Assembly: GCA_021442155.1 (NCBI GenBank)
Contig: CM038221.1
Span: forward strand, 148,853,601 to 148,917,600
Origin: Cymbidium sinense
Taxonomy: Eukaryota > Streptophyta > Magnoliopsida > Asparagales > Orchidaceae
Length of the DNA: 64,000 bases
Reading direction: 5' to 3'
This document shows positions 10,700 through 56,215 of the stretch, piece by piece. Each line of letters opens with the position of its first letter. Position 1 is the stretch's first letter. Position numbers and translations under genes: made by a program. The notes under the pieces are model-generated. The model was given only the letters and a program-made list of their open reading frames with translations, was not told where the DNA came from and did not search any database.

Positions 10700-10822
10700 T
10701 GGTTGGGAAATAGAATTGGGCAAATCTCTTTGGCGAAGGTTTTGCACTCGCTTCACACTACAGGAGTGGTAGTTGACGCACTTACAACTTCTGCCAAAGG
10801 AGAAGTTGCACAGCTATTCACT
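10700..10822 (-). ncRNA. MIR399: MIR399 locus A1, decayed hairpin (minus strand)
   Basis: On the minus strand two arms can pair. The 5' arm at 10812-10791 contains CTTCTCCTTTGGCAG, and the 3' arm at 10735-10716 corresponds to mature miR399. The intact copy in unit B (46890-46910) has TGCCAAAGGAGATTTGCCCA in this position. Here the first base is C and one G of the GG pair is missing, giving CGCCAAAGAGATTTGCCCA. The deletion falls in the region that pairs with the target and would bulge the duplex, so this copy is probably not a good miR399 source. Upstream on the minus strand are a TATA-like box and two P1BS motifs, still intact. A plus-strand reading also gives a miR399-like arm (10792-10812), but the promoter elements lie on the minus-strand side. 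Confidence 0.75.
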
Positions 10823-10917
10823 CTTTCCATTAATTTCTTTTCTTTTCTTCTTCATCTTCTTCTTCTTCTTCATTGTAACATAGACTATCTTGAGTTGAAC
10901 AAAGGCTTACAACCTCT

Positions 10918-10970
10918 TATTTAAAGGCTTGGATGCTAAGGAATATGCCTAACTTCCAATCGGCATATCC
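10918..10970 (-). promoter_or_regulatory. P1BS x2 and TATA-like box for MIR399 A1
   Basis: On the minus strand, GNATATNC motifs lie at 10963-10970 (GCATATCC on plus) and 10941-10948 (GAATATGC on plus). A TATA-like CTTTAAATAA follows at about 10917-10926. P1BS is the known binding site of PHR1-type MYB-CC factors in phosphate-starvation genes. The spacing to the TATA-like box is about 15-45 bp. The same module is found at B1 and, in part, at D. Confidence 0.7.
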
Positions 10971-13280
10971 ACCAAAGAGCCACATAGCATAAGTTCATCA
11001 ATTTGAAACACTTTCACTTGTATAGTGGTATTTTATCCTTCATATGATAATTTATTTGGTTGGATAGAATTATACCCAAGTGTAATGACTAACTTTGATT
11101 GGATTAACATCTATGTGAGGGTTTATAAAAATATCGATTTTAAGAGAGAGATTAAAATATAATCAAATCAAATTTTTGAGTCTCTAACTTTGCTAAATAT
11201 ATCAATTTATTCATTATTATACTAATAAGATTTCCTACAAAATTGTGAGAGATCCAAAACATGCTATATGATTTTGTGAACTCAATATGAATGGATATTC
11301 TAAAAGATTAATTATGTGAGAGGTGTCTAACCTTATCCAAATTTCTCAACCTAGCTCATGATTAGTCATTCAAGTTCAATCATTTCGAAAGAGTGTTTTG
11401 TGAGACATCAAATCTCTCTAGTCCTTCAATATAATTTTATCTCCTCTTATTTCTATAGCTTTAACCTTTTGTTGTATATTATCAAATCTCCTTGCTATTT
11501 TTCATTGTGTACCCTAGCTTCGATAAATGATGTAACTATAGTCCTTTTAATTTAACTATTCTCCATTCTTCATTTATGTCATAAGTCTCAAAATTTTCTC
11601 TTTTACCATCCTTAATTTGACATACAATAACATGCTTTTGTGTTCCTAATGCTGACCACTAAACACATTTTATTTTAAATCTAAATATTAAAAAAGAAAA
11701 AATTAAACAAAGTGAACCCAAATAGCCCTTAAATGAATCTTTGTTGTTAAAAAAAAATTTCTTTATTTGTTGATTATTTCAAGTTATCTTAAAGTGAAGG
11801 TTAATAACTTTTTTTTAGCATAGTAAGCTTTAGGGATAGAGGAGCTTTCATGCATTTGAAAGGATGGCAATAATGTAACCTAGCTTTCAAAAATTTCAAA
11901 TATCCTCTTATTCATTAGCATATGCCTCCATTACTCTCTCCAAGTACTAAATTTCAACCAAGAACTAAAAAGTTAAGAGGATTTGCAAATCAATAAAATC
12001 AAGATTGAAAGAGCATCAATAGGGAAGATCCATAGAATGTTCTGCCATGCATTCTTCAACACCAATAAAAAAAGTTGCTAAAAAGTGATTGAAAAATATG
12101 ATTCCTTTGCTAACTCAAAAGAATTTTTCTATTTCTTAAGTAAATAACTTTTTCCATTCATAATAAAGATATTATAAGAGATTTTGAAAGAGATTATAAT
12201 TCACATCTCAATGTATCAATTGGTCTAGATAAGATAATAAAATAAAATAAAATTATGCTCATAAAAACTATTTAACTAGCTCAAGAGTTGATTAACTCCG
12301 GAGTCAATATAGTGGAGCAGCACCATGATGTTTTTTACAGACAAAAGAATTTCCAAAGTATAAAGGTTCATATGCATCCAACCCATGAGAATTCAATTCT
12401 TTATAAAGCCATATAAAGAGTATTACAAAAGCATAATCAACATCCAGATGTGAATTATCATAATTATAGAAATCTTGAGTTGAATACCTAATGATTCTTG
12501 GTATTTTTCACATAAATCGTATACGACTAAGAGGTTTATTAAGCATAAATGCTTTCTTAAAAGAATGTTTCTCCAAACCATTAATTTAATGATTTAAAGT
12601 TCTCATAATTTCTATATTTTGATAGCCCTTATCATGCAACCCAATATATGCGTTGTTCCATCATAGACTAATGGATGTGATTTTTAACTTATATATTGTG
12701 TGGTCGTATGCAATGCATGCTATTTCTGCATGGATGTAATATTCTACTCCCATATGTACCTTTATTTCCCTCATGCATTCAGTTGAGTTATGAAGTTAAT
12801 GCAAAATAAATTGTTTTCATGCCGATAATTAGCTTCGTTTTGTTCTTTTTCAAGTATATATAAAATATGATAAATGAAATATTTTAGTTCATAGTTTATT
12901 TTCTCACAAATCTACAGGAAAGCAAATAAAATGATCGTATATATTCTGCACGTGTTTACGTTGCCTTTAAAATAAACCAAATCAAACAGTCCGCCAGATC
13001 TAAACCTGAGATCAATACCTTAAAACCAACAGTATAAAACTAGAGCCCTTCCAAAAGACGTAAGACAAATATGAAGGAATTCAGACATACTGTAGGTATA
13101 AACTACTGCATTATAGATTGTTGGATACAATAAAAAGCATAAATTAATAATTCATTAATGAAAGATACTTATAAGCTTGAATGCAACAAGAATAAATTTT
13201 CTGTTGAAGGTAGAATAGATAATTTGCTTTACGAAGGAATAATAGGGAATGAGGACCATTGTGATGGATGCCGCTCAAGA
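10971..13280. other. spacer between divergent MIR399 promoters
   Basis: About 2.3 kb of AT-rich DNA lies between the minus-strand MIR399 A1 promoter and the plus-strand MIR399 A2 promoter. It contains only short chance frames. The same spacer is conserved in unit B (47150-49400), and recognisable pieces exist in half-unit D on both sides of the Mutator-like insertion. No gene is seen. Confidence 0.7.
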
Positions 13281-13290
13281 ATAGTCCAAA

Positions 13291-13342
13291 GCATATCCTG
13301 TAGCATATCCATTCCAATTTTACTGCTTCATAGCTATTTAAG
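13291..13342 (+). promoter_or_regulatory. P1BS x2 and TATA-like box for MIR399 A2
   Basis: Two GCATATCC motifs (13291-13298 and 13303-13310) fit GNATATNC, the PHR1 binding site. CTATTTAAG at 13334-13342 is a likely TATA box. The hairpin starts about 65 bp further downstream. Two adjacent P1BS followed by a TATA box is the layout expected of a phosphate-starvation-induced MIR399 promoter. Confidence 0.8.
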
Positions 13343-13404
13343 TAGTCAACAAATGCAGAAGTTCGACAGTGGCATCAAGTAAATAATAATATTATAGTGT
13401 GGAG

Positions 13405-13525
13405 TTTCAGAATAACAGGCAACTCTCCCTTGGCAGAGAGAATAGACACAACGATGGCATCGTTTAGATCAAGCTGTGTTTTTTTGTCTTTCTGCCAAAG
13501 GAGAATTGCCCTGCTATTCAACCAC
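13405..13525 (+). ncRNA. MIR399: MIR399 locus A2, canonical hairpin (plus strand)
   Basis: The 3' arm at 13493-13513 is a 21-nt sequence beginning TGCCAAAGGAGAATTGCC and ending CTG, which as I recall it equals the miR399 of rice a/b/c type. The 5' arm at 13418-13438 (GGCAACTCTCCCTTGGCAGA) pairs with it over almost the whole length, leaving a loop region of about 54 nt. This is the normal MIR399 layout: mature strand on the 3' arm, star on the 5' arm. miR399 guides cleavage of PHO2/UBC24 mRNA under phosphate starvation, releasing phosphate uptake and transport. Two P1BS motifs and a TATA-like box lie just upstream. Its partner A1 is head to head on the minus strand, 2.6 kb to the left. The mature sequence is intact, so this is the likely active member of unit A. 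Confidence 0.93.
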
Positions 13526-14149
13526 ACAGGAACAAGAAAACTTTTCTGCTAAGGATGGAAAAGTTTACGTAAAAAATAAGGTAAATCTACTTCTAAAGCT
13601 CGACAGGACTGATGGCTTTTGTTCTCTGGTTTCTTCATTGATGATTTTCTAGCTAAAGATCTGAAATGTTTTTTTTTCTAGGCTGGAAGAAAAATAATGA
13701 AAAATAAATCTTAACATGGTAATTTTTGATTTATTTCATAATGCCAAGTTCATAGATATGTTGTAACGTTTCAAACATCTAAAAAAAGTACCAGAAGTTC
13801 GCAGAAGCTGATCTTAATTTTTTTCTTATTAATATGTTCAATTAGCAATTAGAATTTGTTATGTATCCCATCTAGCTGTGCTGTCTTTCTCACCGTATAG
13901 CTAGATTTTCTTCCTTGAAATATTTTCGGTTAATTTTAATACTGTTTAAGCATAATTTACAAAGATGTAGAAAGCATGTGTTCTAATAATTTAGAATTTA
14001 GCAAATTTTTTTATCAGAATGATAGAAAAATAATATCGATTGAACAAAGACTACTCATATGTAAGAAATATATTTGGTTTTAAATTATAATGTATAGCAT
14101 AAAATTATGATCGCTATATTACAAATAGGTACTTTATATGCATTGAAAT

Positions 14150-14160
14150 CACACACACAC

Positions 14161-14252
<92 letters not shown>

Positions 14253-14280
14253 TTGTATATATGTATGTATGTATGTGTGT
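14150..14280. repeat. (CA)n-(TA)n-(GTAT)n compound microsatellite
   Basis: CA run 14150-14163, then an AT run to 14242, then ATGTATAT and GTATGTAT variants. The unit B copy (50275-50345) has the same composition but is much shorter in the AT part. Confidence 0.95.
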
Positions 14281-14589
14281 ATAGTGTGAAGTATAAAGAT
14301 CACAAAGTCATGTGACTTTAAATAATTGCATCATAACTATAAGTTTAGTGTTATATTTATCTAGAAATTTTCATGAAGTCTATACATACCCGTGTGATAA
14401 TTTTAGAATAACAACTATGCTATTTGAGCTTACAAACTTCTACCACCATTTTTATTAACCTGTTCAATCTATCTTGATCCTTATATTTCTTCTAATTTCT
14501 ATAGAAGTTTTATTAAAGCTTAGCAATGGATATAATAATAATTATACAATCATTATATCATTGTCAAGCCAATACCAGTTATGAGAGTT

Positions 14590-15680
14590 GGGGTCTTCAA
14601 AGCGAAGACTTATTTTGATTCCTACACATTTGTGAAGTTGTTTATGATTGTTTTATGAAGCCACAAGAAAGAGATGTGTGGCTTCACCGCTTTAAAAAGT
14701 GATGCTCCCTAAGGAACTTAGAGGAATGTTAAACAATCATATATTTTATTTATCAAGTGATATATTATCAATATTCAAGAAAGTTATGAGGTTACAATTC
14801 CATCCTTATAAAGGAGTCCACATCAAAGAGTGTTCACCTCAAGCACAATGAGAAAAGTTTGAAGCTTTACATAGGAGGTGCCAAAATGTGTTACGCATTA
14901 CATTTCATAAGTCTTCAATACAATTAACTTTTTAAGAAAGAATTACAAAACTTTGTAAGACTTCCAAATTTTAAGAGAAATTATATTCTTGTGAATATAA
15001 AGTTTGAATACATTATAGTGGCTAGTGAAGAGTACAAGGACTTCAGTCCATGATGATTAAGAAGCTTATGGGTTTATCATAGAGATCTGAGCAAAGGCTA
15101 ATAAAGAAGAAAAAGCCTTTAGAGAAAGTTCTTCAAACATAGGTTTCTTAAAAAAGGTTAAAGAAAATTATATAAATGAATGCAAAGGCCATAATAATAA
15201 GAGGATGTAAAAGGCTATAATAATAAGAGGATGTAAAAAAGCAAAGATCAAATGTTATGATTGCAAAAAAAAAAATATGATCATTATGCTTTAGATTGTT
15301 GGTATAAAAGATTTCAATCAAGTTAATAAAATTTGAATTTTATAAATAACCAAAGATGTCGTTTTCTTATTAGAATGAGAAGAAGAAGAAATTAATGAAC
15401 AATCTATATAATATTTATACGCCAGAATAATCATGCCCATGTGCAGCTACACAAAAAAAAAAAAAAAAGTTTTGGGCCTAGCTAGATGAATTTGTATATA
15501 AAAGTCTCTTTTGGTGATTCTTCCAAGGCATGGGTAACCGGTAAAAGTAATAATCTCACACATTGGGAAGATAAAAGTTACCAATTTATTTCCAATGTTT
15601 ATTCTATCAAGTATTTGGTGTTTAGAAAAACTTTTGGATAAATATTACAATATTTATATGAAGTAGAAAAGTATATATTT
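14590..15680 (+). pseudogene. Ty1/Copia gag-protease relic in unit A
   Basis: Heavily broken frames resemble a plant Copia polyprotein in order. A gag helical part lies at about 14840-15120 (EKFEALHRRC; FEYIIVA-like and KDFSSMMIKKLMGL phrases). A zinc knuckle lies near 15245-15300 (CYDCKK, then DHYALDCWYK). A stretch near 15490-15560 resembles the segment after the protease (VSFGDSSKAWVTGKSNN). Frames are interrupted by stops, indels and an A-run. No LTR is seen, and reverse transcriptase and integrase are absent. The relic is shared with unit B and so predates the duplication. The frames run in the same direction as MIR399 A2. Confidence 0.6.
15180..15240 (+). repeat. two-unit 29-bp tandem repeat
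   Basis: Two adjacent copies of a unit containing GGCTATAATAATAAGAGGATG lie inside the Copia relic. Both copies are present in unit B (51245-51300). Confidence 0.8.
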
Positions 15681-15964
15681 AAGAGGCTAAAATGATAAGT
15701 TATTTGTTAATGTAAAATGCCAAATAGTCTTTTATTCTCATTATTTATCAAGTATGTTAATCTACTTATATCAAATATTCTTCTTGATTATGATATTTGA
15801 GATTAGGCATCTTCATTTTAATGATCTCCGACAACTACCGGCAATCAAACACATGAGAAATATATTATCACATATCAATTCTCCAAAATAATTATATGAA
15901 TAGTGTGTTATTATTAAGCAAGTGAGGAGAAACTTCACGTAAGAGGCATGTAGTTCAACAAAAC

Positions 15965-16125
15965 CAATATTTATAAACCCATTGTGGGCTCCAAAAATTC
16001 TCCACCGATCTCTCGACACATGAAGCGAGTATGATTTAAGTGTAGGTATAATTCTTAGAAGATAGATGTAATAGTAGATAAAACACTACCCAGAGATTTT
16101 GCCCTCATTTCATAATTACTTATTT
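15965..16125 (-). repeat. inverted fragment of TE-X terminal block
   Basis: Reverse-complementary to the end of TE-X copy 1. ATTGTGGGCTCCAAAAATTC here corresponds to GAATTTTTGGAGCCCACAAT at 6911-6930, and AAACACTACCCAGAGATTT corresponds to AAATCTCTAGGTAGTGT. Unit A is therefore bracketed by TE-X terminal blocks in opposite orientation. The fragment is also present in unit B (52015-52170). Confidence 0.7.
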
Positions 16126-16554
16126 ATGAATTTAATACTTTGAGTAATATTAAGAGGTTCTATTCATAAACAAACATCAACTCAATATCCACTCATTAAG
16201 TTTTAAATTTTATTTAATAAGCGGACTTCAAATTATCTTAATCTCTTGTGAGTTTGGTTTGTGCCGGAGGAATTCAAGTTTATTTCCAAATTTTATAGGT
16301 TCAAAGTTGATCTACATTTTCTTACTTGAAATATGATTTTTAATTTTATTTGTACTCAAATCTTTTTCGAATTCATTTCCAGTTCATTTATATTTAATTT
16401 TCAATTAATTTCTTTAGAACTTTATATTTTATATTTAACATAATCTTAAATTATTATTTTTTGTTAAGTCCAAAAAAATTAGACAAAATTTTGTAACAAT
16501 TGTCGGTATTTACGCATCATCCTCGCATAAACTACATCAGTATTATTTTGGCAA

Positions 16555-16895
16555 ACTTGTCACGCCATCATGGCGTGGTTTTTTTAACCTGAGTAATCCG
16601 ATCTCGTTACGATGAATAGCAGGGATCATTGATAAAAAAATATTTGCAAATATTCTTCTCTCCTTTTTTTTCTATGCATTTGTCAAAATTTCGATAACAT
16701 TTCGGCTTAAGGGACTGCATCTAACTATTTATTTTTTAGGCTTATCCGTCACACCCTGATGAGCGTGACGATTGGTGTTTTGAAACATCTAAATCGATTT
16801 TCATCTCGTCATGTCTTGATGAGCGTGATGATTGGTGTTTTGAAACATCTAATTCGATTTTCATCTCGTCACACCTTGATGAGCATGACGAGGTC
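16555..16895. repeat. about 61-bp tandem repeat with internal palindrome, unit A
   Basis: Three tandem units start near 16747, 16808 and 16868. Each begins with CGTCACACCCTGATGAGCGTGACG or a variant, an interrupted palindrome of CGTCAC and GTGACG, followed by ATTGGTGTTTTGAAACATCTAA. A related isolated palindrome (CACGCCATCATGGCGTG) lies at about 16561-16577. Unit B carries five units. The function is unknown; each palindrome could form a short hairpin. Confidence 0.8.
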
Positions 16896-16896
16896 T

Positions 16897-17571
16897 TCAA
16901 ATCTGAAGTACAACTGAGTTTATCATATCTGCATATTTAACAGCCAAATTGAGTGACATACACCTAGCTGGTGCTATTGTATAACATCAAACCCTCTTTT
17001 TTGTCAAGATTACCCAATTTTTTCTATTCTGAACAACCAGCATTGCTAGCATTGCTGCTACACCAGAACCAAGAGAATGTCCAGCAAAAGTGAGGGTATA
17101 GTTAGGATACTTAATCCAGCAACTCTTTTATAGCATCACATTCTGCATTCAACACCCATGCAGCAGCCTTTAGTAGCCCATGAGAACATAACCTCCATCA
17201 ATTTTCCTCTTTCCAAGTCTGTTATCAAGTAGTAGAGCATAATCGCTTTCCTTCGCCAAATTTAAGCCTCTTATTGCAAGAACAATATCGGCATGGTCAT
17301 GATCAACATAGAGCAAGTAAAGTGTCACTCGACCGCGAGTTTCATCATATGTTTTGCGGCAAACAACCGACTGAGGATTCAGGCCATAGCCTCTTGGTGG
17401 TTCCCACTGAGGGTGTTGCACAGATTCAAATTCTTCAATTGTGGCAAGGGCCCAGTTTTCACTGTCGTGGCCGGCATTATGGATGTAACGCTTCCAAGCC
17501 CAACGGGCACAGGCAAGGCAGTAGACACACTCAAGGAGGGGCAGATCGAAGGCAAATGACATCTGGGACAA
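16897..17571 (-). pseudogene. class 3 lipase (DAG-lipase-like) gene fragment, broken
   Basis: Minus-strand frames reproduce a plant class 3 lipase of the mono-/diacylglycerol-lipase-like group in order: [18 protein letters not shown] near the start, YVDHDHADIVLAIRGLNLAK and SDYALLLDNRLG in the middle, then KAAAWVLNAECDAIKELL, the nucleophile elbow TLTFAGHSLGSGVAAML (GHSLG, complement of about 17037-17093), and finally IAPARCMSLNLAV and ADMINSVVLQ. Intact family members are several times longer. At least three frame breaks separate the blocks (near 17178, 17110 and 17005). About 15 residues between EEFE and the PPRGYGL block are missing compared with the family as I know it. No introns are visible between the blocks, so it may derive from a spliced copy. 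It is followed directly by the palindromic repeat and preceded by the ABCE fragment on the same strand. It is not functional. Confidence 0.88.
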
Positions 17572-17589
17572 ACGGCTAGAAGTTGAGCT

Positions 17590-17882
17590 GGTAGCCTATG
17601 CAGCTCGAATGTGTTTGGTCCACAACGATGCGTTGCATCTTTGTCAAGATCCTTTGGTAGATTAATAATTTGAATTGCCTTAAAAGGACAATTCTTGACA
17701 TAGAGACCACATCCAATGCATAATTATTCAGAAATGAAAGCAATTCTTGAGGAAGATATAACCTCTATGCAAAGTTTGCATGTTTTCACCACAGGACAAC
17801 TCTTCTTGCACTCTTGGCGGCATTTCTTCGGCTTACACCCATCGGAACTGACGATGGCGATCCGAGTCAGTCTATCAGCCAT
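17590..17882 (-). pseudogene. ABCE/RLI 5' fragment with N-terminal iron-sulfur domain, broken
   Basis: The start codon is at 17882-17880 on the minus strand. The frame reads [18 protein letters not shown], then [47 protein letters not shown] and finally [11 protein letters not shown]. This is the N-terminal ferredoxin-like [4Fe-4S] region of ABCE (RNase L inhibitor, Rli1), the essential ribosome-recycling ATPase. Only about 95 codons remain; the two ATPase domains are absent. An in-frame stop stands before LCIGCG, where a glutamate is expected. After HRLP the frame runs into the lipase fragment, 20-30 bases away on the same strand. Most cluster cysteines are still present, so the decay is fairly recent. 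It is not a functional ABCE. Confidence 0.9.
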
Positions 17883-18370: not shown

Positions 18371-18479
18371 GAAATTAGGGTTAATTTTGGGTTATTAAGA
18401 ATAAATAGGCATTTTAAATTAATTTCATAAACGTTTAATTAGTCTTTATATAAATTTTACGCCGACATTAATATAGGGT

Positions 18480-18988
18480 TAATATATATGTTGATTCAAG
18501 ATTATTCTGATGTTCCGGACACAACGACGTAGTCCATTTCATGATCGGAGACCATTTGGTTCAAGTCGGCGTCAAATCGAGTAGATTTCAGCTTAAAAAT
18601 GCGCATCACCGCTTCCAATCGCTCGACATTCGCACAGACTTGTCCGAATTGATTTCAAATAGTCTCACTTGATAGATTTTGATGTTTCAAAACTAACAGC
18701 ACAATCAATTTCATGAACGGAGGTCGTTTGAGCATCGTCGCAGCCTCCCGACTCCGATATACGTGTAGACACATTGACAGCTCGATCGGTTGATCGTTAG
18801 ATTATACAATATTTATAATCTGACCAATTTCGATGTTCTGAACGTGATGGTGAAGTCCGTTCGTCGATCGGAGGTCATTTGGGCATCGTCGCAGCCTCCC
18901 GACTCTAATATGCTCGTCGACACATTTGCAGCTCAATTGCTTGATCGGTTGATTGTTAGATTATGCAATATTTATATTCCGACTAATT
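18480..18988 (-). repeat. TE-X inverted arm preceding copy 2
   Basis: Reverse-complementary to about 19630-20370 within TE-X copy 2. For example, GACCATTTGGTTCAAGTCGG and TGATGTTCCGGACACAACG mirror the phrases near 20260-20320. It contains its own internal duplication of about 150 bp, with GCATCGTCGCAGCCTCCCGA at about 18733 and 18883. Together with copy 2 it would fold into a stem of several hundred bp. A chance frame crosses it. Confidence 0.75.
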
Positions 18989-20639: not shown

Positions 20640-21210
20640 GCATTTTGCCGCTATTCCGCATCTCGTCCATGCATGATATTTTGTCAACGTAATTCCATGC
20701 ATTTCCCCTCCACCGGTGATGTCCCGCGCATGCCGCAAAAGTAATTTCGTGCATGGCTGGCCGGCAAAAAGCAGCGTCTCGCCCGCCTTCAGCGTTCAGT
20801 GTGACCCTATGCCGCCAGCCATTCCACGTGATCCGAACCGTCGACTGCTTCCTCCATTCTGCGACCGAATCCGTAGGCCGCTGACCGGTCGCTTCTCGCC
20901 ATCGTCTCAATCGGCGACCAGCCGTGCGTGATCCGCCCGCTCCTTTACCTTTTGTAAGACACATCGACCCTCCATCCGTCTTCCGATCCAACCTTGCACC
21001 CAAACGGCCCGGCTTATCAGCCCCGGACCGGCTCCTTAACCGTTCCGCAGGCGGTTTCGCCGACCCGCCCGCCTTCTTCTAGCCACCAACCTTCTTCCCT
21101 CAGAGGCCCTGACTCCTCCCTGACCCACCATTGATTACGGTGCGGTAAATCCAATTGCAAACCTTGCCCATTCTGTGCAATCTTTCCCATAAGCTCACAA
21201 CCCATCCAAA
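20640..21210. other. GC-rich block inside TE-X copy 2
   Basis: The base composition rises sharply compared with both sides. Long frames occur on both strands, but they lack recognisable domains and are not maintained in copy 1 (3300-3870). I treat them as non-coding. The block could be a promoter-like region of the element. Confidence 0.5.
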
Positions 21211-21234
21211 TTTTATCATTTTCGCTTCACCGTA

Positions 21235-21660: not shown

Positions 21661-21769
21661 CACTCCTTACCTTACATTCTCAACCATATACCTAACCCCG
21701 CCTTTTCATAAGTTACCAAAAATAAGTCAGAAAATGTGGGATATGTGAATGGATATATATTGTATGCTT

Positions 21770-31549: not shown

Positions 31550-31591
31550 GCATATCCAAGCCGTATTCTGTGATTCACCCACCCTTATAAG
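31550..31591 (+). promoter_or_regulatory. P1BS and TATA-like box for MIR399 C
   Basis: GCATATCC at 31550-31557 fits the P1BS consensus GNATATNC. The neighbouring upstream motif is GCATATCG (31540-31547), which has lost the final C. CTTATAAG at 31584-31591 is a TATA-like box. The layout matches A2 and B2 with one P1BS lost. Confidence 0.7.
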
Positions 31592-31669
31592 TAGTGAACA
31601 TATGAAGCGAACTTCAATAATGGAATCAATCAAGTTCTTAAATTGTCGAGTGAAGGGAAGTGGCCTGTG

Positions 31670-31795
31670 GGGTTTGAATAAGGCAAATCTCCTTTGGCGG
31701 AAAGAATAGAAAATTCTTGTAGTATTATTTGTATCAAACTATAAGTTTTTTATTTATTAATTCGTGCCAAAGGAGAATTGTCCTGTTATTCAACA
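31670..31795 (+). ncRNA. MIR399: MIR399 locus C, hairpin with variant mature sequence (plus strand)
   Basis: The 3' arm at 31765-31785 starts TGCCAAAGGAGAATTG and then has T instead of C at position 17 of the 21-nt mature sequence. The 5' arm at 31682-31701 (GGCAAATCTCCTTTGGCGGA) pairs with it. The loop region is about 63 nt. Positions 1-16, including the seed and the cleavage centre, match the consensus, so it could still act on PHO2-type targets. One intact P1BS and a TATA-like box precede it. An LTR retrotransposon is inserted about 105 bp beyond the hairpin at 31900, so the primary transcript probably ends in, or is influenced by, transposon sequence. Confidence 0.85.
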
Positions 31796-41851: not shown

Positions 41852-41856
41852 ATTCT

Positions 41857-42713: not shown

Positions 42714-42718
42714 ATTCT

Positions 42719-43161: not shown

Positions 43162-46100
43162 ATGATCAACCTATTACATGTGTGTATTGTTTGTTTTAAA
43201 CAAGAAAATGAATATTATTAAAAGGTGATTATACTTCTAATATATATTAATTAGTTGATTGTAGCATGATTTGTGCTAGTGGATATTATGCATATGTTGG
43301 TATCAATGGTGTTATTTATTTATATATAGTTCCTATTTATTTTAGGTTGCAAAATAATTATTGATGTCACCGTCATGGATAATGATAATGTATGATTTCT
43401 TTCTATAAAATATATAAATTTTATTTTAATAGTTTGGTCATTGTATAAAACTAAGTAACCAATGTATATGAATTCTTTTGGACTATTAATAATACAATCT
43501 TATAAAGAAAATATATTGATATTTTAATTATTATTTATATTTTTTATTAATTTAATGGCTATATGTTGCATATGTAAATTAGACAAGTTTAATCTCTAAC
43601 ATCTTTTGGTTTTTACAAGAATTTGTTATGATATAATATGTATATGTGATTTTACATGAATGTATTGAGGTTCTCTTCTTAGTATCACTCCTTAGTTGAT
43701 GTGATATGTCAATATGTAGGGTTTTATCGGCAAAAGTTTAAAAGTGGTATTAGAATAATGGTAAGATTAATGAATCATGGTACTTTACTAGAGTTTTGGA
43801 TGAGAATTATGAGTTAGAAGAATAGATTAGAAAGATAAAACTTAATATATAGTGCAACCAAATGTTGATATTTAGATTTATAGTTGAGATTGGATAAGTA
43901 TCAACCTTTATACTACATGTTATGAGTAGATTTCATTTTATGATATCATTTGATGCAATGTCATTGATTCATTGATTTTGCAATGTCATTGGTTCATTGA
44001 TTTTGCAATGACATTGATTATGTGTCTAATATGGTATGGTGTTTAAGTATACTTATGTATCATATTAAGCAACATGTACATGACAATGTATCATATTAAG
44101 AAACATCTACATGACATATTATAAGTGATATATGGCAAGCGAGAAGAAACATAATCTAAAAAACATACCTAATAGCAACATTTTACCATAGTATAATATA
44201 AAAGAAATTGATAATTTCAATAGAATGGTATATATATCAACTTTAATAATGTCAAATACACACACACACACAGATTCTCTTGTTGAATAATTTCATATAC
44301 ATGAAATTACAAAAATACATAAATATAAGTAATATAATTAAGTTTATTTAAGATTTTATACAAATATAAAAAAAACAAATAAAAGAATGTATCTTTCAAA
44401 TGATTATGTCTATCTATATTTACATGAATCACTGACTCTTCTATCAGATGTCAGGTAAATATGTAAATGCTCAATTGAGTTAAAAATGATCTTAATTTTT
44501 ATTTCTAACTTAAGAAGTTCAAAAATTGTCATTCTCTTTTCTTTTCCATACAATCAATATTGATTGCCACATAAAGCTTAAAATTTTTTTCTTAGTTTCA
44601 TTAATACATTATACATTATCTTGTGAAGTTGATCACGAGATGTGATGGGCAATAACTTTTGCATAAATACATGAAAATTATGTACCATCAAACCATATAA
44701 AGTAAAATCTTATATATTTACAAGTCTTTTTAAATTTAAAGCATATATGTCTAAAAAATTTAAATGTTTTAATTAAAAGTATATCTCCTTCTTTATTCCA
44801 TTGTCAAAACATATGATTCTATAAGTTAATTTCTCCATGCCACCATAAAATAATTATAAAGAGCACAACAAAGAAAAGTTTAGCTTTGGACTAATCTTCT
44901 CAAACGAAATTAAATTTAAAATTATAGAAATTACTTATTTTTATAATATCTTATTCATCTAATCCAATAAATAAAACACTAAACAATAATGTTAGTATGC
45001 GACAAAATTTCAATAAATTATCAAAAAGCACAAAAACTTATTTCCTTCTAGTAATATAAATTAACTAATAGCTTTAAGTGAAATTTTAAAATTGCTTATT
45101 TGATACAAATTCTTGGATAAAACACAAATTAAGAAATAAAAATGCTAAATGAAGAAGCACTTCAGACTGGTTTTAAAATTTATTCCCAATCAATATAAAG
45201 TAGAGTATGCCATGCAAAGTAAAATTAAAAAATATATATAATAAAGGATTCTGAGAACTTTGCTATTAATTCTCATTTGATAACTAATAAAAGAATAAAT
45301 GTGCTATTAGTGTAACTTTTGTGCAACTAAGAATATAATCATCTACAAAAGTCTCTCTATTCCATAATAGTTTATATTTTTTAGAACAAGCAACATACAT
45401 TTTATCATTATAAGAACTTCGAAAAGAATCAAAGAAAGAAACTATTAGTAGCCATGTATAATATTACCAACATTTCTTGATTGCGAAGAGGATTAGTTAG
45501 AAGATAGGGTTATAGATAGGCCGATAGAAGAGAGAAGGTGGAATTGTAGGCTAGTGAAAGTGAGAAGACTGAGCCATTGGTGATGTGTGATTGTGGATTC
45601 ATAGTAGACATCATGCGATGCAGTTAGGATTTAATGACAGATGAAATAAGAAGAAGTATTTCTTCGATTGATTTCTCAATTTTTAGGTTTTTGTGATGGA
45701 TTTGCAATGATATGTTATTTTTGTCTCAACATCCTACACCTTCTTAATTATGCTTCTCTCCATTGTTGTGATGAAGCATTTATATGTCATAAGTATGTCA
45801 CATATTTGTGGTGGGAAGAATAAGTTACAAAATGATTGCAACTTAATTTAGAACAAAAAACTATATGTCATAAATCTATTGTAACGTTGAGATGAGACAT
45901 TATGACAAATAGTTGTTCAATGAAAAAATAAAGGTTTACAACGTGTGAGTTGCAAGAATATTGAAATATTTTAAGACTAATTCCGAAAATATATATATAT
46001 CAAATTTGTAAAAAAATTTGAAATTTGCTATTTTGGGGGGACCTATTTGCTTGCTTTTAGGAGAGAAGACAATGCAAGCTACCCTTACTAGTGATCCTTG

Positions 46101-46874
46101 GATGCATGTTCCTATACTAGCTAGCTAGATTATTGCTCAATCTTGAGATGAAGAAGAACGTTGAAACTTGGTTAAAATATATCTAATATCGATACCATGT
46201 AGTGGCTCATTTAAATTTCTTTTAATAGGGGCATAAAACTTAATTTTATCAAGGCATAAAAATTTATTTTTTAATAGGTAATAAAACATTATTTTTAAAA
46301 TCATTATATAATGATATAGAGAAGAAGAAGAGGAACAATTGATGAAAAGAGATGCTGGGAGGACTGGAGAGAAGAAGGCTGAGCAAGCTGTGAAACTCAC
46401 TAAAATAAGTTTTAAATTTCAGATCAGCTTAATGAAAAGAACAATCTTCAACACTCCTATGATCATGAGCATGAGCATAAATATGTAGTAAAATATAAGT
46501 AAGCATCCTGTAAACATTTAAGAGAACTGAATATGTAGTAGAAATATAAGAACTAAGCAACCATAATAACAATACTATAATAAAAAAATTGGTTGTCTAT
46601 TACAACATTTTTTAAGATAAATCTCTATCATTAACATTAAGGTTATCCATAGAAACTAACTTTAGGCACAATATCTCCAGTGATTAAAACTTGTTAGTTT
46701 AGTTCCATTGAAATTTTATTAATGGTTCTATGTATTGAATTTTAAGTTCTATTGGGTCTAAGTAATTTGCAGACTCACCACATAAAGTTAGCAACTACTG
46801 AAATGAAATATTAATTGAGGAGACAAAAACATATTAGATGGAGAGAAAGACCAGACAAACTGAGCATGGTCGGC

Positions 46875-47000
46875 TGGGAAATAGAATTGCTGGGCAAATC
46901 TCCTTTGGCAGTAAGGTTTTTCACACACTTCACACTACAAGAGTGGTAGTTGATGCACTTAAAACTTCTGCCAAAGGAGAAGTTGCACAGCTATTCACTC
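46875..47000 (-). ncRNA. MIR399: MIR399 locus B1, canonical hairpin (minus strand)
   Basis: On the minus strand the 3' arm (complement of 46890-46910) is a 21-nt sequence that starts TGCCAAAGGAGATTTGCC and ends CAG, which as I recall it is the miR399 e/f/g type of rice. The 5' star arm (complement of 46968-46989, GTGCAACTTCTCCTTTGGCA) pairs with it. The loop region is about 57 nt. A TATA-like box and two P1BS motifs lie upstream on the minus strand at 47091-47144. Expected role: phosphate-starvation-induced silencing of PHO2/UBC24. This copy is intact, whereas its counterpart A1 has lost one base in the mature region. Partner B2 lies 2.6 kb away, head to head. Confidence 0.92.
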
Positions 47001-47090
47001 TTTCCATTAATTTCTTTAATTTTCTTCTTCATCTTCTTCTTCTTTATTGTAACATAGACTATCTTGAGTTGAACAAAGGCTTACAACCTC

Positions 47091-47144
47091 TTATTTAAAG
47101 GCTTGGATGCTAAGGAATATGCCTAACTTCCAATTGGCATATCC
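47091..47144 (-). promoter_or_regulatory. P1BS x2 and TATA-like box for MIR399 B1
   Basis: Minus-strand order: GNATATNC motifs at 47137-47144 (GCATATCC on plus) and 47115-47122 (GAATATGC on plus), then TATA-like CTTTAAATAA at 47091-47100, then the hairpin about 90 bp further. Identical to the A1 module. Confidence 0.78.
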
Positions 47145-49408
47145 ACCAAAGAGCCACATACAACTGTGCATAGATTTATCTATTTATGAACACTTTCACT
47201 TGTATAGTTGTATTTTACAGTCCTTCATATGATAATTTATTTGGTTGGATAGAATTATACCCAAGTGTAATGACTAACTTTGATTGGATTAACATCTTTG
47301 TGAGGGTTTATAAAAATATCAATTTTAAGAGAGAGAGATAAAATACAATCAAATCAAATTTTTGAGTCTCTAACTTTGCTAAATATATCAACTTATTCAT
47401 TATTATACTAATAAGGTTTCTTACAAAATTGTGAGATGGACAAAACCTACTATATGATTTTGTGAACTCAATATGACGGATATTCTAAAGATTAATTATG
47501 TGAGAGGTGTCTAACCTTATCCAAATTGCTCAACCTAGCTTATGATTAGTCATTCAAGTCTCCCTAATCCTTTAATATAATTTTATCTCCTCTTATTTTT
47601 GTAGCCTTAACCTTTTGTTGTATATTATCAAATCACCTTGCTATTTTTCACTATGTACCCTAACTTCGATAAATGATGTAACTATAGTCCTTTTAATTTA
47701 ACTATTCTCCATTCTTCATTTATGTCATCAGTCACAAAATTTTCTATTTTATCATCCTTAATTTGACATACAATAACATGCTTTTTGTATTGCCCAATGC
47801 TGACCACTAAACACATTTTATTTTAAATCTAAATATTAAGAAAAGAAAAAATGAAAAAAAATAAACAAAGTGAACCCAAATAGCCCTTAAATGAATCTTT
47901 GTTGTTAAAAAAAATTTTCTTTATTTGTTGATTATTTCAAGTTATATTAAAGTGAAGGTTAATAACATTTTTTAGCATAGTAAGCTTTAGGGATAGAGGA
48001 GCTTTCATGTATTTGAAAGGATGGCAATAATGTAACCTAGCTTTCAAAAATTTCAAATATCCTCTTATTCATTAGCATATGCCTCCATTACTCTCTCCGA
48101 CTAAATTTCAACCAAGAACTAGAAAGCTAAGAGGATTTGCAAATCTATAAAATCAAGATTGAAAGAGCGTCAATAGGGAAGATCCATAGAATGTTCCATG
48201 CCATGCATTCTTCAACACCATAAAAAAGTTGCTGCAAAAAAGTGATTGAAAAATATGATTCCTTTGCTAACTCAAAAGACTTGTTCTATTTCTTAAGTAA
48301 ATAACTTTTTTCATTCATAAGAAAGATATTCTAAGAGATTTTGAAAGACATTATAATTCACATCTCAATGTATCAATTGGTCTAGATAAGATAATAAAAT
48401 AAAATTAAATTAAGCTCATAAAAACTATTTAACAAGCTTAAGAGTTGATAAACTCCGGAGTCAATATAGTGGAGCAGCACCATGATGTTTTTACAGCAGA
48501 CAAAGAATTTCCAAAGTATAAAGGTTCATATACATCCAACCCATGAGAATTCAATTCTTTATAAAGCCATACAAAGAGTATTACAAAAGCATAATCAACA
48601 TCTTGATGAGAATTATCATAATTATAGAAATCTTGAGTTGAATACCTAATGACTCTTGGTATTTTTCACATAAATCGTATACGACTAAGAGGTTTATTAA
48701 GTATAAATGCTTTCTTAAAAGAATGTTTCTCCAAACATTAATTTAATGATTTAAAGTTCTCATAATTTCTATATTTTGATAGCCCTTATCATGCAACCCA
48801 ATATATGCGTTGTTCCATCATAGACTAATGGATGTGATTTTTAACTTATATATTGTGTGGTCGTATGCAATGCATGCTATTTTCTGCATGGATGTAATAT
48901 TCTACTCCCATATGTACCTTTATTTCCCTCATGCATTCAGTTGAGTTATGAAGTTAATGCAAAATAAATTATTTTCATGCCGATAATTAGCTTCGTTTTG
49001 TTCTTTTTCAAGTATATATAAAATATGATAAATGAAATATTTTAGTTCATAGTTTATTTTCTCACAAATCTACAGGAAAGCAAATAAAATGATCGTATAT
49101 ATTCTGCACGTGTTTACGTTGCCTTTAAAATAAACCAAATCAAACAGTCCGCCAGATCTAAAAACTAGAGCCCTTCCAAAAGACGTAAGACATATATGAA
49201 GGAATTCAGACATACTGTAGGTATAAACTACTGCATTATAGATTGTTGGATACAATAAAAAGCATAAATTAATAATTCATTAATGAACGATACTTATAAG
49301 CTTGAAAGCAACAAGAATAAATTTTCTGTTGAAGGTAGAATAGATAATTTGCTTTCGGAAGGGGGAATGAGGACCATTGCGATGGATGCCGCTCAAGAAT
49401 AGTCCAAA

Positions 49409-49460
49409 GCATATCCTGTAGCATATTCATTCCAATTTTACTGCTTCACAGCTATTTAAG
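49409..49460 (+). promoter_or_regulatory. P1BS x2 and TATA-like box for MIR399 B2
   Basis: GCATATCC at 49409-49416 and GCATATTC at 49421-49428 both fit GNATATNC. CTATTTAAG at 49452-49460 is the TATA-like box. The second P1BS differs from unit A by one base that the consensus tolerates. Confidence 0.78.
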
Positions 49461-49524
49461 TAGTCAACAAATGCAGAAGTTCGACAGTGGCATCAAGTAA
49501 ATAATAATATTATGGTGTGAAGTT

Positions 49525-49645
49525 TCAGAATAACAGGCAACTCTCCCTTGGCAGAGAGAATAGACACAACGATGGCATCGTTTAGATCAAGCTGTATTTT
49601 TTTGTCTTTCTGCCAAAGGAGAATTGCCCTTCTATTCAACCACAC
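49525..49645 (+). ncRNA. MIR399: MIR399 locus B2, hairpin with changed 3' end (plus strand)
   Basis: The 3' arm at 49611-49631 starts TGCCAAAGGAGAATTGCC and ends CTT; only the last base of the 21-nt mature sequence (G to T) differs from locus A2. The 5' arm at 49536-49556 (GGCAACTCTCCCTTGGCAGA) pairs with it, with a loop region of about 54 nt. The final base usually matters little for target pairing, so this locus may remain functional. P1BS motifs and a TATA-like box are in place upstream. Confidence 0.9.
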
Positions 49646-50274
49646 AGGAACAAGAAAACTTTTCTGCTAAGGATGGAAAAGTTTACTTAAAAAATAAGGT
49701 AAATCTACTTCTAAAGCTCGACAGGACTGATGGCTTTTGTTCTCTGGTTTCTTCATTGATGATTTTCTAGCTAAAGATCTGAAATGTTTTTTTTTTCCTA
49801 GGCTGGAAGAAAAATAATGAAAAATAAATCTTAACATGGTAGTTTTTGATTTATTTCATGTATCGCCAAGTTCATAGATATGTTGTAACGTTTCAAACAT
49901 CTAAAAAAAGTACCAAAAGTTCGCAGAAGCTGATCTTAATTTTTTTTTCTTATCAATATGTTCAATTAGCAATTAGAATTTGTTATGTATCCCATCTAGC
50001 TGTGCTGTCTTTCTCACCGTATAGCTAGATTTTCTTCCTTGAAATATTTTCGGTTAATTTTAATACTGTTTAAGCATAATTTACAAAGATGTAGAAAGCA
50101 TGTGTTCTAATAATTTAGAATTTAGCAAATTTTTTTATCAGAATGATAGAAAAATAATATCGATTGAACAAAGACTACTCATATGTAAGAAATATATTTG
50201 GTTTAAATTATAATGTATAGCATAAAATTATGATCGCTATATTACAAATAGGTACTTTATATGCATTTGGAAAT

Positions 50275-50285
50275 CACACACACAC

Positions 50286-50322
<37 letters not shown>

Positions 50323-50345
50323 ATGTATGTATGTGTATGTGTGTG
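50275..50345. repeat. (CA)n-(TA)n-(GTAT)n compound microsatellite, unit B
   Basis: Shorter counterpart of 14150-14280: CA at 50275-50288, TA at 50290-50318, then GTATGTATGT. Confidence 0.95.
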
Positions 50346-50639
50346 AAGTATAAAGATCACAAACTCATGTGACTTTAAATAATTGCATCATAACTATAAG
50401 TTTAGTGTTATATTTATCTAGAAATTTTCATGAAGTCTATACATACCCGTGTGATAATTTTAGAATAACAAACTGTGCTATTTGAGCTTACAAACTTCTA
50501 CCACCAGTTTTCTTAACCTGTTCAATCTATCTTGATCCTTATATTTCTTCTAATTTCTATAGAAGTTTTATTAAAGCTTAGCAATGGATATAATAATAAT
50601 TATACAATCATTATATCATTGTCAAGCCAATACCAGTTA

Positions 50640-51730
50640 TGAGAGTTGGGGTCTTCAAATGAAGACTTAATTTGATTCCTACACATTTGTGAAGTTGTTT
50701 ATGAATGTTTTATGAAGCCACAAGAAAGAGATGTGTGGCTTCACTGCTTTAAAAAGTGATGCTCCCTTAGGAACTTAGAGGAATGTTAAACAATCATATG
50801 TTTTATTTATCAAGTGATATATAATCAATATTCAAGAAAATTATGAGGTTACAATTCCATCCTTATAGAGGAGTCCGCACATCAAAGAGTGTTCACCTCC
50901 AAGCACAATGAGAAAAGTTTGAAGCTTTACATAGGAGGGTGCCAAAAATGTGTTACAAGGTACATTTCATAAGTCTTCAATACAATTAACTTTTTAAGAA
51001 AGAATTACAAAACTTTGTAAGACTTCCAAATTTTAAGAGAAATTATATTCTTGTGAATACAAAGTTTGAATACATTATAGTGGCTAGTGAAGAGTTCAAG
51101 GACTTAGAGTCCATGATGATTAAGAAGCTTATGGGTTTATCATAGAGATCTGAGCAAAGGCTAATAAAGAAGAAAAAGCCTTTAGAGAAAGTTCTTCAAA
51201 CATAGGTTTCTTAAAAAGGTTAAAGAAAATTATATAAATGAATGCAAAGGCTATAATAATAAGAGGATGTAAAAGGCTATAATAATAAGAGGATGTAAAA
51301 AAGTAAAGATAAAATGTTATGATTGCAAAAAAAATATATGATCATTATGCTTGAGATTGTTGGTATAAAAGATTTCAATCAAGTTAATAAAATTTGAATT
51401 TTATAAATAACCAAAGATGTCGTTTTCTTATTAGAATGAGAAGAAGAAGAAATTAATGCACAATCTATATAATATTTATACGCCAGAATAATCATGCCCA
51501 TGTGCAGCTACAAAAAAAAAAAAAAGTTTTTGGGCCTAGCTAGATGAATTTGCATATAAAAAGTCTCTTTTGGTGATTCTTCCAAGGCATGGGTAACCGG
51601 TAAAAGTAATAATCTCACACATTGGGAAGATAAAAGTTACCAATTTATTTCCAATGTTTATTCTATGGCAAGTATTTGGTGTTTATAAAACTTTTGGATA
51701 AATATTACAATATTCATATGAATTAGAAAA
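50640..51730 (+). pseudogene. Ty1/Copia gag-protease relic in unit B
   Basis: Counterpart of the relic at 14590-15680 with the same order (gag helical part, zinc knuckle CYDCKK, VSFGDSSKAWVTGKSNN phrase). Several indels differ between the two copies, as expected for neutral decay after duplication. Confidence 0.6.
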
Positions 51731-52014
51731 GTATATATTTAAGAGGCTAAAATGATAAGTTATTTGTTCATGTAAAATGCCAAATAGTCTTTTATTCTCA
51801 TTATTTATCAAGTATGTTAATCTACTTATATCAAATATTCTTCTTGATTATGATATTTGAGATTAGGCATCTTCATTTTAATGATCTCCAACAACTACCG
51901 GCAATCAAACACATGAGAAATATATTATCTCATATCAATTCTCCAAAATAAGTGTGTTATTATTAAGCAAGTGAGGAGAAACTTCACATAAGAGGCATAT
52001 AGTTCAACAAAACC

Positions 52015-52170
52015 AATATTTATAAACCCACTATGGGCTCCGAAAATTCGTCATCGATCTCTCGACACATGAAGAGAGTATGATTTAAGTGTCGGTGTAA
52101 TTCTCAGAAGATAGATGTAATAGTAGATAAGATACTACCCAGAGATTTCGCCCTCATTTCATAATTACTT
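52015..52170 (-). repeat. inverted fragment of TE-X terminal block, unit B
   Basis: Counterpart of 15965-16125 (CACTATGGGCTCCGAAAATTC and ACTACCCAGAGATTT). It shows that the fragment was present before the segmental duplication. Confidence 0.65.
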
Positions 52171-52624
52171 GTTTATGAATTTAATACTTTGAGTATTCAA
52201 TAAGAGGCTCTATTCACATAAACAAACATCAACTCCAATATCCCTAACTCCACATTAAGTTTCATATTTATTTAATAACTGGACTTCAAATTTATCGTAA
52301 GTCTCTTGTGAGTTTCGGTTTATGTACCAGAGGAATTCAAGTTTATTTCAAGTTTTATAGGTTCACTTAAGTTCGATCTCTATTTTCTTACTTGAAATAT
52401 GATTTTCAATTTTATTTGTCTTGAAGTCTTTTTGAATTCATTTCCAGTTCATTTATATTTAATTTCCAATTCATTTCTTTAGAACTTTATATTTTATATT
52501 TAACATAATCTTAAATTTTTATTTTTGTTAAGTCCAAAAAAATTGGACAAAATTTCGGCAACAATTAGTCAGTATTCCTGCGTCATCCTCGCGTAGGGAA
52601 CTACATCGAAACTATTTTGACATA

Positions 52625-52998
52625 CCCGTCACGCCCTGATCAGCATGAAGGTTGGTGTTTGAAATACCTCGGCTGAATTTCAATCCAGTTACACCCTGAT
52701 GAGCATAACGAGACCTTCAATCACTGCATAAAAGCAAAAATTTATGCAAATATTCTTCTCTCTTTTTTTTTTCTATGTCCAAATTTCAGTCAAAATTTCG
52801 ACAACATTTCGACTTAAGGAGTTGCATCTAACTATTTATTTTTTGGGCTTACCCATCACACCCTGATGAGCGTGACGATTGGTGTTTTGAAACAACTAAA
52901 TAGATTTTCATCTCGTCACGCCCTGATGAGCGTGATGGTTGGTGTTTTGAAACACCTAATTCGATTTTCATCTCGTCATGCCTTGATGAGCATGAAAG
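52625..52998. repeat. about 61-bp palindromic tandem repeat, unit B (five units)
   Basis: Units with CGTCACGCCCTGATGAGCGT or close variants start near 52628, 52688, 52853, 52915 and 52976, with ATTGGTGTTTTGAAACA between them. Between 52725 and 52850 there is a non-repeated segment that in unit A lies at about 16630-16740. Confidence 0.8.
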
Positions 52999-53019
52999 GT
53001 CTTCAAGGCAACGAGTTTA

Positions 53020-53420
53020 TCACATCGCATATTTAATGACCAAATTGAGTGACATACACCTAGCGGTGCTATTGTATAACATCAAAACCTCTTTTTTATC
53101 AATATTACCCAATTTTTTTCTATTCAACAACGACATTGCTAGCATTTACACCGAACCAAGAGAATGTCCAGAAAAAGTGAGGGTATAGTTAAGATACTTA
53201 ATCCAGAACTCTTTTATAGTATTCGCATTCAACACCCATGCCAGCCTTTAGTAGCCCATGAGAACATAACCTCCATCAATTTTCCTCTTTCCAAGTCAGT
53301 TATCAAGTAGTAGAGCATAATCGCTTTCCTTCACCAAATTTAAGCCTCTTCTTGCAAGAACAATATCGGCATGGTCATGATCAACATAGAGCAAGTAAAG
53401 TGTCACTCGACCGCGAGTTT
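53020..53420 (-). pseudogene. class 3 lipase fragment, unit B copy, truncated
   Basis: Counterpart of 16897-17342 on the minus strand. It retains parts of the GHSLG region (about 53150-53185) and the KESDYALLLDN region, but with extra small deletions. It is cut at 53420 by the start of an LTR. The N-terminal half of the lipase fragment and the ABCE fragment are missing. Confidence 0.82.
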
Positions 53421-54160: not shown

Positions 54161-54200
54161 CTTCTCCTTGATCACCTAATTGTGATATCTTTCACACACT

Positions 54201-54201
54201 C

Positions 54202-54236
<35 letters not shown>

Positions 54237-54370
54237 CCGCGCACACGCGCACGTCTACACACACACACACACACATCCGCGCGCACATCTACGCACACAC
54301 ACACACACACACACAGCGCGCGACGCGACGCGACGCGACGCACGCATACATTCACACACACACATGTGCA
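54201..54370. repeat. CA/CG-rich compound microsatellite
   Basis: (CA)n runs alternate with GCGCACACGCGCAC and a GCGACGCGACGCGACGC block, then more CA. Long alternating purine-pyrimidine DNA of this kind can adopt the Z form. A threonine/histidine-rich frame through it is an artefact. Confidence 0.93.
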
Positions 54371-55700
54371 TGTGTGCATAACACAACTCTTGGAGTGGTA
54401 CTCTCAAAATGCTGTCACTTCACTCTTATATATTCACTCACTTCACAAGAAAAATAAGAAAGAAAGAAAAATATCTGAAAAAATTCCTTTTGCCTTGTAA
54501 ATGTGCCTTTTATATAGCTTATACATAGCCTTGGTCAGGTTTCCTGACACTCCTATCATAACCACCCCGAGAACTGCATGAAATCATTGTTGAATCATCA
54601 TGAAATTGCTCTCGTAGAGCCATAGCGCCTTGACGCTGGTTCTATAGTGCCTAGGTGTTGAACTCTCTAATTTTTTTATTTTAAAGTTTTTATTCTTGAC
54701 GTTATAATGTAGTGTCTCGATGCTATAAATTTGGCATAGCAGCACTGTCTTCTATGTTCTACACAACCTTTTCTTCTGATACTAGCGCATCAACTTGTAA
54801 ATATAGCTCCACGATATTGTATTGTGATTCTGCATTTTCTTTTCTTTTCTAATAAGAGAGTTTTTATCATAAACACTTAAAATTATGAAAATAAATTATA
54901 AAATAATAAAATTGTTACTTAAAATGCATGCTAATTTAACTGAACTTTATCACTCATTAAAGTGCTAGAAAGCAAAACTAATTTTTTGATTAAGCATTCT
55001 ACAAATTGTATAAGAGTTATAATTATAAGAATCAAGTTATATTTATGAATGTTTTTAAAATAGCTAATGCATGGATGAAGTAAACAAAAAATCATGAGTA
55101 TACCTAGGATTAATTTGAATTTAAGGATGTGACACATAAATAATTTGGTCAAAATTCCTTATTTAAACTTGTAATGTATATAAAAAACTCTATGGTGTCT
55201 TTATATATGTATTAAATATTTTGAAATAGTGATCATTGCGCCTTTCATTAATCATAACTTATGTCAAAATTTGTGAAATGTTTTAGAAATATGTATCATG
55301 CCATCAAAGATTTGACTTCAAAATATGTAACTAATTGTAATGATTATAATAGTCAGAGATAATTGACAATCAGATTTGAGTCTATCATTATCGCTACAAA
55401 ATAAAAATAAAAAATAAAAAATAAAAATCTAGTTGTTGTAATCATTGTCATCCCATTTACATATGTGCGGCAATTAAAACTGTTGTAACTAATAGTGAGT
55501 ATAATCATTGCAATTCTATATTACTATATAATAAAAGAAATTATTACTGCTGCAATATTTGTTAAGAGCATTACAATGATTATTTAAAATCTTAAATTTA
55601 TGTAGATGGCATTAATTTTAATCGCCTTAAATAATTATTATAATATTATATGCTTATATACATAATCATTACTAAATTTTACTTCATAACGGTTAAAACA
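54371..55700. other. AT-rich spacer without recognisable genes
   Basis: No domain-bearing frame, RNA gene or known repeat is recognised. A short GC-richer stretch at 54510-54660 could be a remnant of the neighbouring retroelement. Confidence 0.5.
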
Positions 55701-56089
55701 ATCACAGTACACCCTAACCAGGGAATATTATGGAAGTGATCTACGCGCGATTCCGCAAAATGAAGAAGAAATCGGAGAATGCAGTGGTGAGAGCAGAAGT
55801 CTGATTTCTTCTTTATTTTGGAATCGATCGATCTAGTGGACTCCGCACGTAATATTTCCCCCTAACCAGCAGTATCAAGATCGTTACAAAGGAAAAAAAG
55901 CAATGGCAACGTTTGTGTGGAGGTTTCTCTATTATAGAAATTAAAATGGTGCCAATATTGCTGGCTTTATATATCAACTTCTACTCTCTAAGTATTCAAA
56001 ATCTCTGCATGCATGATCTATATTAAGTTAATAACTTCTAAATGCCAAATTAAAGGGATAGAGAAGTATGGCTTCCCACGTTTTCCGGT

Positions 56090-56215
56090 GAAGAGAAATT
56101 GCTGGAGAAATCTACTTTGGCAGAAAGCATTTTACAGTCGCTCCACACTCCGAGAGAGGAACTTGACGCACTTACAGCTCCTGCCAATGGAGAAGTTGTC
56201 CAGCTATCAACTCTT
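56090..56215 (-). ncRNA. MIR399-like locus D, variant hairpin (minus strand)
   Basis: On the minus strand the 3' arm (complement of 56102-56122) starts TGCCAAAGTAGATTT and ends CTCCAG. Compared with locus B1 it differs at position 9 (G to T), 16 (G to C) and 17 (C to T). The 5' arm (complement of 56183-56203, GACAACTTCTCCATTGGCA) pairs with it, also with changes. Position 9 is next to the slicing site, so targeting of ordinary PHO2 sites is doubtful. One P1BS and a TATA-like box remain upstream on the minus strand. It could be a decaying MIR399 or a miRNA with altered specificity. Confidence 0.7.

Follow-up and report, generated by a model that had tools for sequence, protein, structure and literature searches.

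Clusters of MIR399 genes are already known from several plants. miR399 has been named among the clustered plant microRNA families (PMC2812943), and closely spaced MIR399 loci have been described in Arabidopsis and rice, where several neighboring copies are attributed to duplication (PMC2358906). The barley pairs hvu-MIR399b/e-1 and hvu-MIR399-3/-4 each consist of two MIR399 genes ~2 kb apart (PMC3878733). Grapevine has nine MIR399 members, five of them on one chromosome, with the mature sequence on the 3' arm; as far as that account was available, distances are not given, and its text contains none of the words tandem, duplicat- or P1BS (PMC10931670). Here we describe a cluster of six MIR399-type loci, named A1, A2, C, B1, B2 and D, in a 64,000-nucleotide stretch of contig CM038221.1 (the whole stretch analyzed, hereafter the window). 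A preliminary examination of the letters alone (the sequence-only reading) had proposed these loci and had noted that such clusters occur in other plants, which is indeed in print (PMC2812943, PMC2358906, PMC3878733).

The barley pairs also place two MIR399 genes close together in a monocot. Those pairs, as far as they are described, have a single orientation, whereas the two genes diverge in A1/A2 and in B1/B2, and this pair has itself been duplicated (PMC3878733). The Arabidopsis and rice clusters resemble the present one in the nearness of several copies (PMC2358906); the six loci here cover ~46 kb on two strands. Relative to the Rfam MIR399 family (RF00445), the loci share the mature sequence on the 3' arm, the foldback shape and the upstream P1BS sites, and differ in that four of six score under the family cut-off and that the cores of A1 and D are altered. 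Among the papers listed in searches of the open-licence PMC literature, none reported this cluster, which is weak evidence of absence. What is new is therefore this example, not the existence of MIR399 clusters.

Six MIR399-type loci and their mature sequences

A pattern search of the window found paired miR399-like arms at all six places, each on the strand that the sequence-only reading had given.

10709..10823, minus strand: A1 foldback; mature-equivalent 10716-10735; probably damaged
13406..13523, plus strand: A2 foldback; mature miR399 at 13493-13513 on the 3' arm; intact
31672..31795, plus strand: C foldback; mature 31765-31785, which differs at position 17; probably intact
46880..47000, minus strand: B1 foldback; mature 46890-46910 on the 3' arm; intact
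49524..49641, plus strand: B2 foldback; mature 49611-49631, which differs at position 21; probably intact
56092..56213, minus strand: D foldback; mature-equivalent 56102-56122; probably damaged

As had been proposed, the mature sequence is complete and of a known type at two loci. A2 reads TGCCAAAGGAGAATTGCCCTG at 13493-13513(+), an exact miR399 21-mer that is the same as the Rfam model consensus over those positions. B1 reads TGCCAAAGGAGATTTGCCCAG at 46890-46910(-), an exact 21-mer of a second miR399 type already in print. By simple arithmetic, ~3e-8 occurrences of an exact 21-mer would be expected by chance in 64 kb, counting both strands. In B2 and C, the positions listed above are the sole differences, so that a known-type miR399 lies on the 3' arm at four of the six loci (two exact, two with one difference), while A1 and D are altered. 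Compared with the second miR399 type, D is changed at positions 9, 16 and 17. A1 reads GCCAAAG-AGATTTGCC at 10716-10735(-), and by eye its core is one G short; the aligner's version of this arm has two 3-base gaps and four substitutions instead of one missing G.

The six loci were then compared with RF00445, which has a curated cut-off of 57 bits. On the sense strand, B1 (68.6 bits) and A2 (64.1 bits) exceeded the cut-off, and B2 fell short of it by 0.3 bits (56.7 bits, E 1.3e-10). Lower scores were obtained for C (43.5 bits, E 9.8e-07), D (43.4 bits, E 1.1e-06) and A1 (32.4 bits, E 0.0018). Two loci thus lay over the cut-off, and all six matched at E <0.01. A foldback was present at every locus, as had been expected of them, with sense-strand folding z-scores of -4.1 (A1), -6.9 (A2), -7.3 (C), -5.8 (B1), -4.4 (B2) and -2.9 (D, the weakest). 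Two to three positions of the mature sequence were unpaired at A2, B1, B2 and C (two at C), two at A1 and six at D.

The claim of six hairpins therefore stands in that all are of MIR399 type, but they do not look like equal genes. As judged from these sequences, A2, B1, B2 and C look intact, and A1 and D are probably damaged. The grounds for calling A1 damaged are the change in its core and its low score against Rfam, and not a faster rate of change.

Promoters and the duplicated pair

In Arabidopsis, miR399 is under the control of PHR1 (PMC2936532), and one to three P1BS sites per MIR399 promoter are described for Arabidopsis and N. benthamiana (PMC6296076). We counted this PHR1-binding motif (GNATATNC) within 200 bp upstream of each hairpin stretch on the predicted strand. 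At least one site was found at all six loci. The promoters are as follows.

10918..10970, minus strand: A1 promoter; P1BS 10963-10970 and 10941-10948; TATA-like TTTAAATA 10918-10925
13291..13341, plus strand: A2 promoter; P1BS 13291-13298 and 13303-13310; TATA-like TATTTAA 13335-13341
31550..31592, plus strand: C promoter; P1BS 31550-31557; TATA-like TATAAGT 31586-31592
47092..47144, minus strand: B1 promoter; P1BS 47137-47144 and 47115-47122; TATA-like TTTAAATA 47092-47099
49409..49459, plus strand: B2 promoter; P1BS 49409-49416 and 49421-49428; TATA-like TATTTAA 49453-49459
56301..56354, minus strand: D promoter; P1BS 56347-56354; TATA-like TTTAAATA 56301-56308

The window holds 26 P1BS sites, 10 of which lie in the upstream stretches of the six hairpins against 0.47 expected (naive p 1.6e-11). 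Because A and B are copies, a count of four units is fairer, and the chance of at least one site at each unit is then ~5e-6. By alignment, the promoters fall into two classes, A1/B1/D and A2/B2/C; in the D promoter, the second P1BS of A1/B1 is altered. The P1BS variant GCATATCC occurs nine times on the plus-strand reading, seven of them inside the MIR399 promoters. The two sites away from the MIR399 hairpins lie at 26061-26068 and 34027-34034, and neither promoter-hairpin class profile matched there with E <1.

The A and B pairs are each divergent, in agreement with the sequence-only reading, and they lie in two blocks of the same orientation.

6929..17342, no strand: Block A, the left copy of a segmental duplication, holding A1 and A2
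43162..53420, no strand: Block B, the right copy in the same orientation, holding B1 and B2

Blocks A and B share 95.0% identity across 10102 aligned bases, with 469 gap columns in the alignment. On this alignment, a direct 10.4-kb segmental duplication copied one divergent pair to give A1+A2 and B1+B2; the copied unit contained one gene of each promoter class with ~2.6 kb between the hairpins. C resembles A2/B2 and D resembles A1/B1 over the promoter plus hairpin alone, ~250-300 bases in blastn and alignment, which makes C and D, in sequence terms, more distant solitary relatives, one per class. Such confined likeness would be expected if selection kept those parts. The description of the cluster as nested did not hold; the layout is instead that of a duplicated divergent pair with two distant solitary relatives. 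When profiles of the two classes (three loci each) were searched for the missing partners of C and D, no convincing extra member was found: the best match outside the six loci, at 10156-10226, had E 0.026 with strong composition bias, and the rest had E of at least 0.45.

Divergence between the copies was uneven. It was 5.2% at 7000-12400 and 2.0% at 12400-15900 (difference p 6e-15), and reached 12.5% at 16000-17342. Gene conversion over A2/B2 is perhaps the reason for the low value at 12400-15900. The A1/B1 promoter core (10880-10975) had one substitution in 96 aligned bases, compared with 5.2% over 7000-12400, a difference with a one-sided p of 0.04 for a stretch that was chosen after viewing. 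At the A2/B2 hairpin, divergence was not reduced relative to its surroundings. Overall, the tests for constraint between copies A and B are weak.

Proposed explanation and alternatives

The observed foldbacks, mature sequences, P1BS sites at all six loci, two promoter classes and A/B duplication are best explained, with high confidence on our part, by MIR399 genes that each have their own promoter and that expanded by duplication into a local cluster; they are predicted to be induced by phosphate shortage and to silence PHO2. Following the established pathway, a PHR1-type MYB factor would bind the P1BS sites under phosphate shortage, and every locus would give a separate primary transcript. 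A Dicer-like enzyme would excise the 21-nucleotide miRNA from the 3' arm. The miR399 would then silence PHO2, which would increase the uptake of phosphate and its transfer to the shoot. A2, B1, B2 and C are predicted to be probably still working MIR399 genes. In the moth orchid Phalaenopsis, PHO2 is listed among the miR399 targets (PMC3920020). Outside the hairpins, the window contained no PHO2-like target sites at up to six mismatches and no IPS1-like target mimics (two to four inserted bases, few mismatches). From this layout a polycistronic cluster was rejected, since the two genes of the A pair and of the B pair point away from each other and every locus has a P1BS site of its own; the nearest neighboring hairpins are 2.5-2.6 kb apart and on opposite strands.

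Several observations weigh against this explanation or against the division into intact and damaged loci. Four of the six loci score under the Rfam cut-off. When the miRNA/star duplex was checked automatically for a single helix, only C and B2 passed, and A1, A2, B1 and D failed, possibly owing to an edge effect. RNAalifold applied to the six gave a slightly unfavorable covariation term (+0.36), and both-sided changes, seen in 9 of 24 pairs, were all in the inner loop helix, with none in the arms. Opposite-strand z-scores were better than those of the sense strand at three loci (A2, -8.7; B2, -6.5; D, -4.0) and worse at A1, B1 and C. TATA-like boxes lie between P1BS and hairpin at all six loci, but the patterns were picked after viewing the promoters, and such a match also turns up in 24% of 90-bp stretches drawn at random from the window. 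The A1/B1 hairpin is no less diverged than its surroundings (8.3% compared with 5.2% and 6.3%). Nor is the A2/B2 promoter, with 1/46 or 2.2% against 2.2% upstream of it. With only two unpaired mature positions in A1, pairing alone is no mark of damage. When D served as outgroup, seven derived substitutions fell to A1 and seven to B1, with five more assigned to neither; gap columns inside the cut numbered six in A1 and three in B1 (five end-of-cut columns were left out of the A1 count). Finally, the barley authors state, in the part of their account available, that upstream sequences of plant miR399 genes have no high similarity (PMC3878733). The promoter likeness seen here may therefore owe as much to a recent common origin as to function.

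The equal numbers of derived substitutions in A1 and B1 and the good pairing of A1, together with the foldback and at least one P1BS retained by both A1 and D, would fit six active MIR399 genes, A1 and D yielding variant miR399s. We consider this unlikely, as A1 lacks one G in its core and scores lowest of the six against Rfam, while D is altered at positions 9, 16 and 17, has six unpaired mature positions and shows the weakest folding z-score. That the two blocks represent an assembly error, in which two haplotypes of one locus were placed on one contig, is less probable still. Their 95.0% identity would allow it, and the window does contain an assembly gap (100 N), although this lies at 1196-1295 and in neither block. 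However, the block starts are 36.2 kb apart with 25.8 kb in between, the flanks of the blocks are unlike on both sides, C is located between them, and their divergence varies within the block between 2.0% and 12.5%. Repeats make up much of the window and adjoin the block edges, so that hairpins arising as inverted-repeat or transposon debris that merely resembles miR399 were also considered. Exact miR399 types in two mature sequences, the Rfam family support and the P1BS sites upstream of all six make this extremely improbable.

The strand of transcription is decided neither by the Rfam model nor by the fold. Against RF00445, the opposite strand scored 61.0 bits at A2 (above the cut-off), 56.1 at B1, 55.9 at B2 and 41.1 at C; at A1 the match was weak (24.7 bits, E 0.34), and at D there was no match up to E 1. 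We assigned the strands because of the exact mature sequences and the side that carries the P1BS sites. Since the MIR399 model is matched strongly by the opposite strand at four of the six loci, transcription of both strands can be imagined: the sense strand would give canonical miR399 under phosphate starvation, the antisense strand a second, different miR399-like product or a damping of the sense gene, and the duplicated divergent pair would act as a unit of dosage and cross-talk. Barley MIR399 loci do yield antisense small RNAs, described there as lacking a phosphate response (PMC3878733). We regard this both-strand arrangement as speculative, with a small chance of being correct.

Surrounding sequence and meaning of the cluster

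The sequence-only reading had called the hairpins the only plausible functional genes in the window. Of the 133 open frames with at least 68 amino acids, 124 were compared with Pfam (nine AT/CA-repeat frames were removed by hand, and those with at least 10 N-derived residues were excluded by script). The outcome agrees with that view, although the scan was limited and spliced genes with short exons would escape it. Each of two families matched a single frame, namely Lipase3_N (E 3.6e-10) and, weakly, Salyut (E 0.0045). Integrase- and transposase-like stretches noticed by eye had no Pfam match. As far as scanned, the window is gene-poor apart from MIR399.

The Lipase3_N frame was located by a protein similarity search and not from the Pfam output. 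Both blocks have a lipase-like remnant on the minus strand at their right edge (16867-17562 and 53026-53418). In block A, the open frame stops at 17173 and the similarity continues to 17562, indicating an interrupted remnant; in block B, the similarity covers just 53026-53418 and ends at the block border. In the similarity search, where candidates were limited by query length, 77 of 87 candidates for the lipase fragment passed E 0.001. The best score was for Vanilla planifolia (70% identity over 91%), with magnoliid, dicot and Ginkgo-like entries close behind, and shorter local matches were more alike, such as those in Aegilops tauschii and wheat (80% over 35%). For a second fragment, one of two candidates matched, a protein of Dendrobium chrysotoxum (70% over 43%), and a third query had no match (one candidate). 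On this weak evidence, an orchid source of the DNA is possible. A 46-residue ABCE1/RLI1-like stretch at about 17586-17723, minus strand, adjoins the lipase remnant. Both are possibly captured gene pieces.

Several repeats were observed. The end of block B coincides with the start (53421) of a repeat beginning TGATAC, of which a 75%-alike copy lies at 41857, left of block B; it may be a long terminal repeat or another element at the break. A ~130-bp repeat ending GGAGCCCA occurs at four places, two per orientation (6804-6931, 15980-16110, 24223-24348 and 52030-52159), and one copy adjoins the left edge of block A. A second collinear repeat pair, 1751-6926 and 18988-24344, is 77-84% alike in its main pieces and 69% in one, and is probably mobile-element sequence. 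Positions 2-1194 hold degenerate TTTAGG/TTTAGGG-like repeats, perhaps an old telomere-like repeat, followed by the assembly gap, which is the window's single N run.

The orchid family relies on fungi for its nutrients. The cluster changes no principle, and it offers a clear case of growth in a nutrient-response microRNA family, in which a divergent pair was copied entire with its promoters and in which some copies were kept while others are apparently decaying. If the source of this DNA is an orchid, the cluster would bear on phosphate control in a fungus-dependent family.

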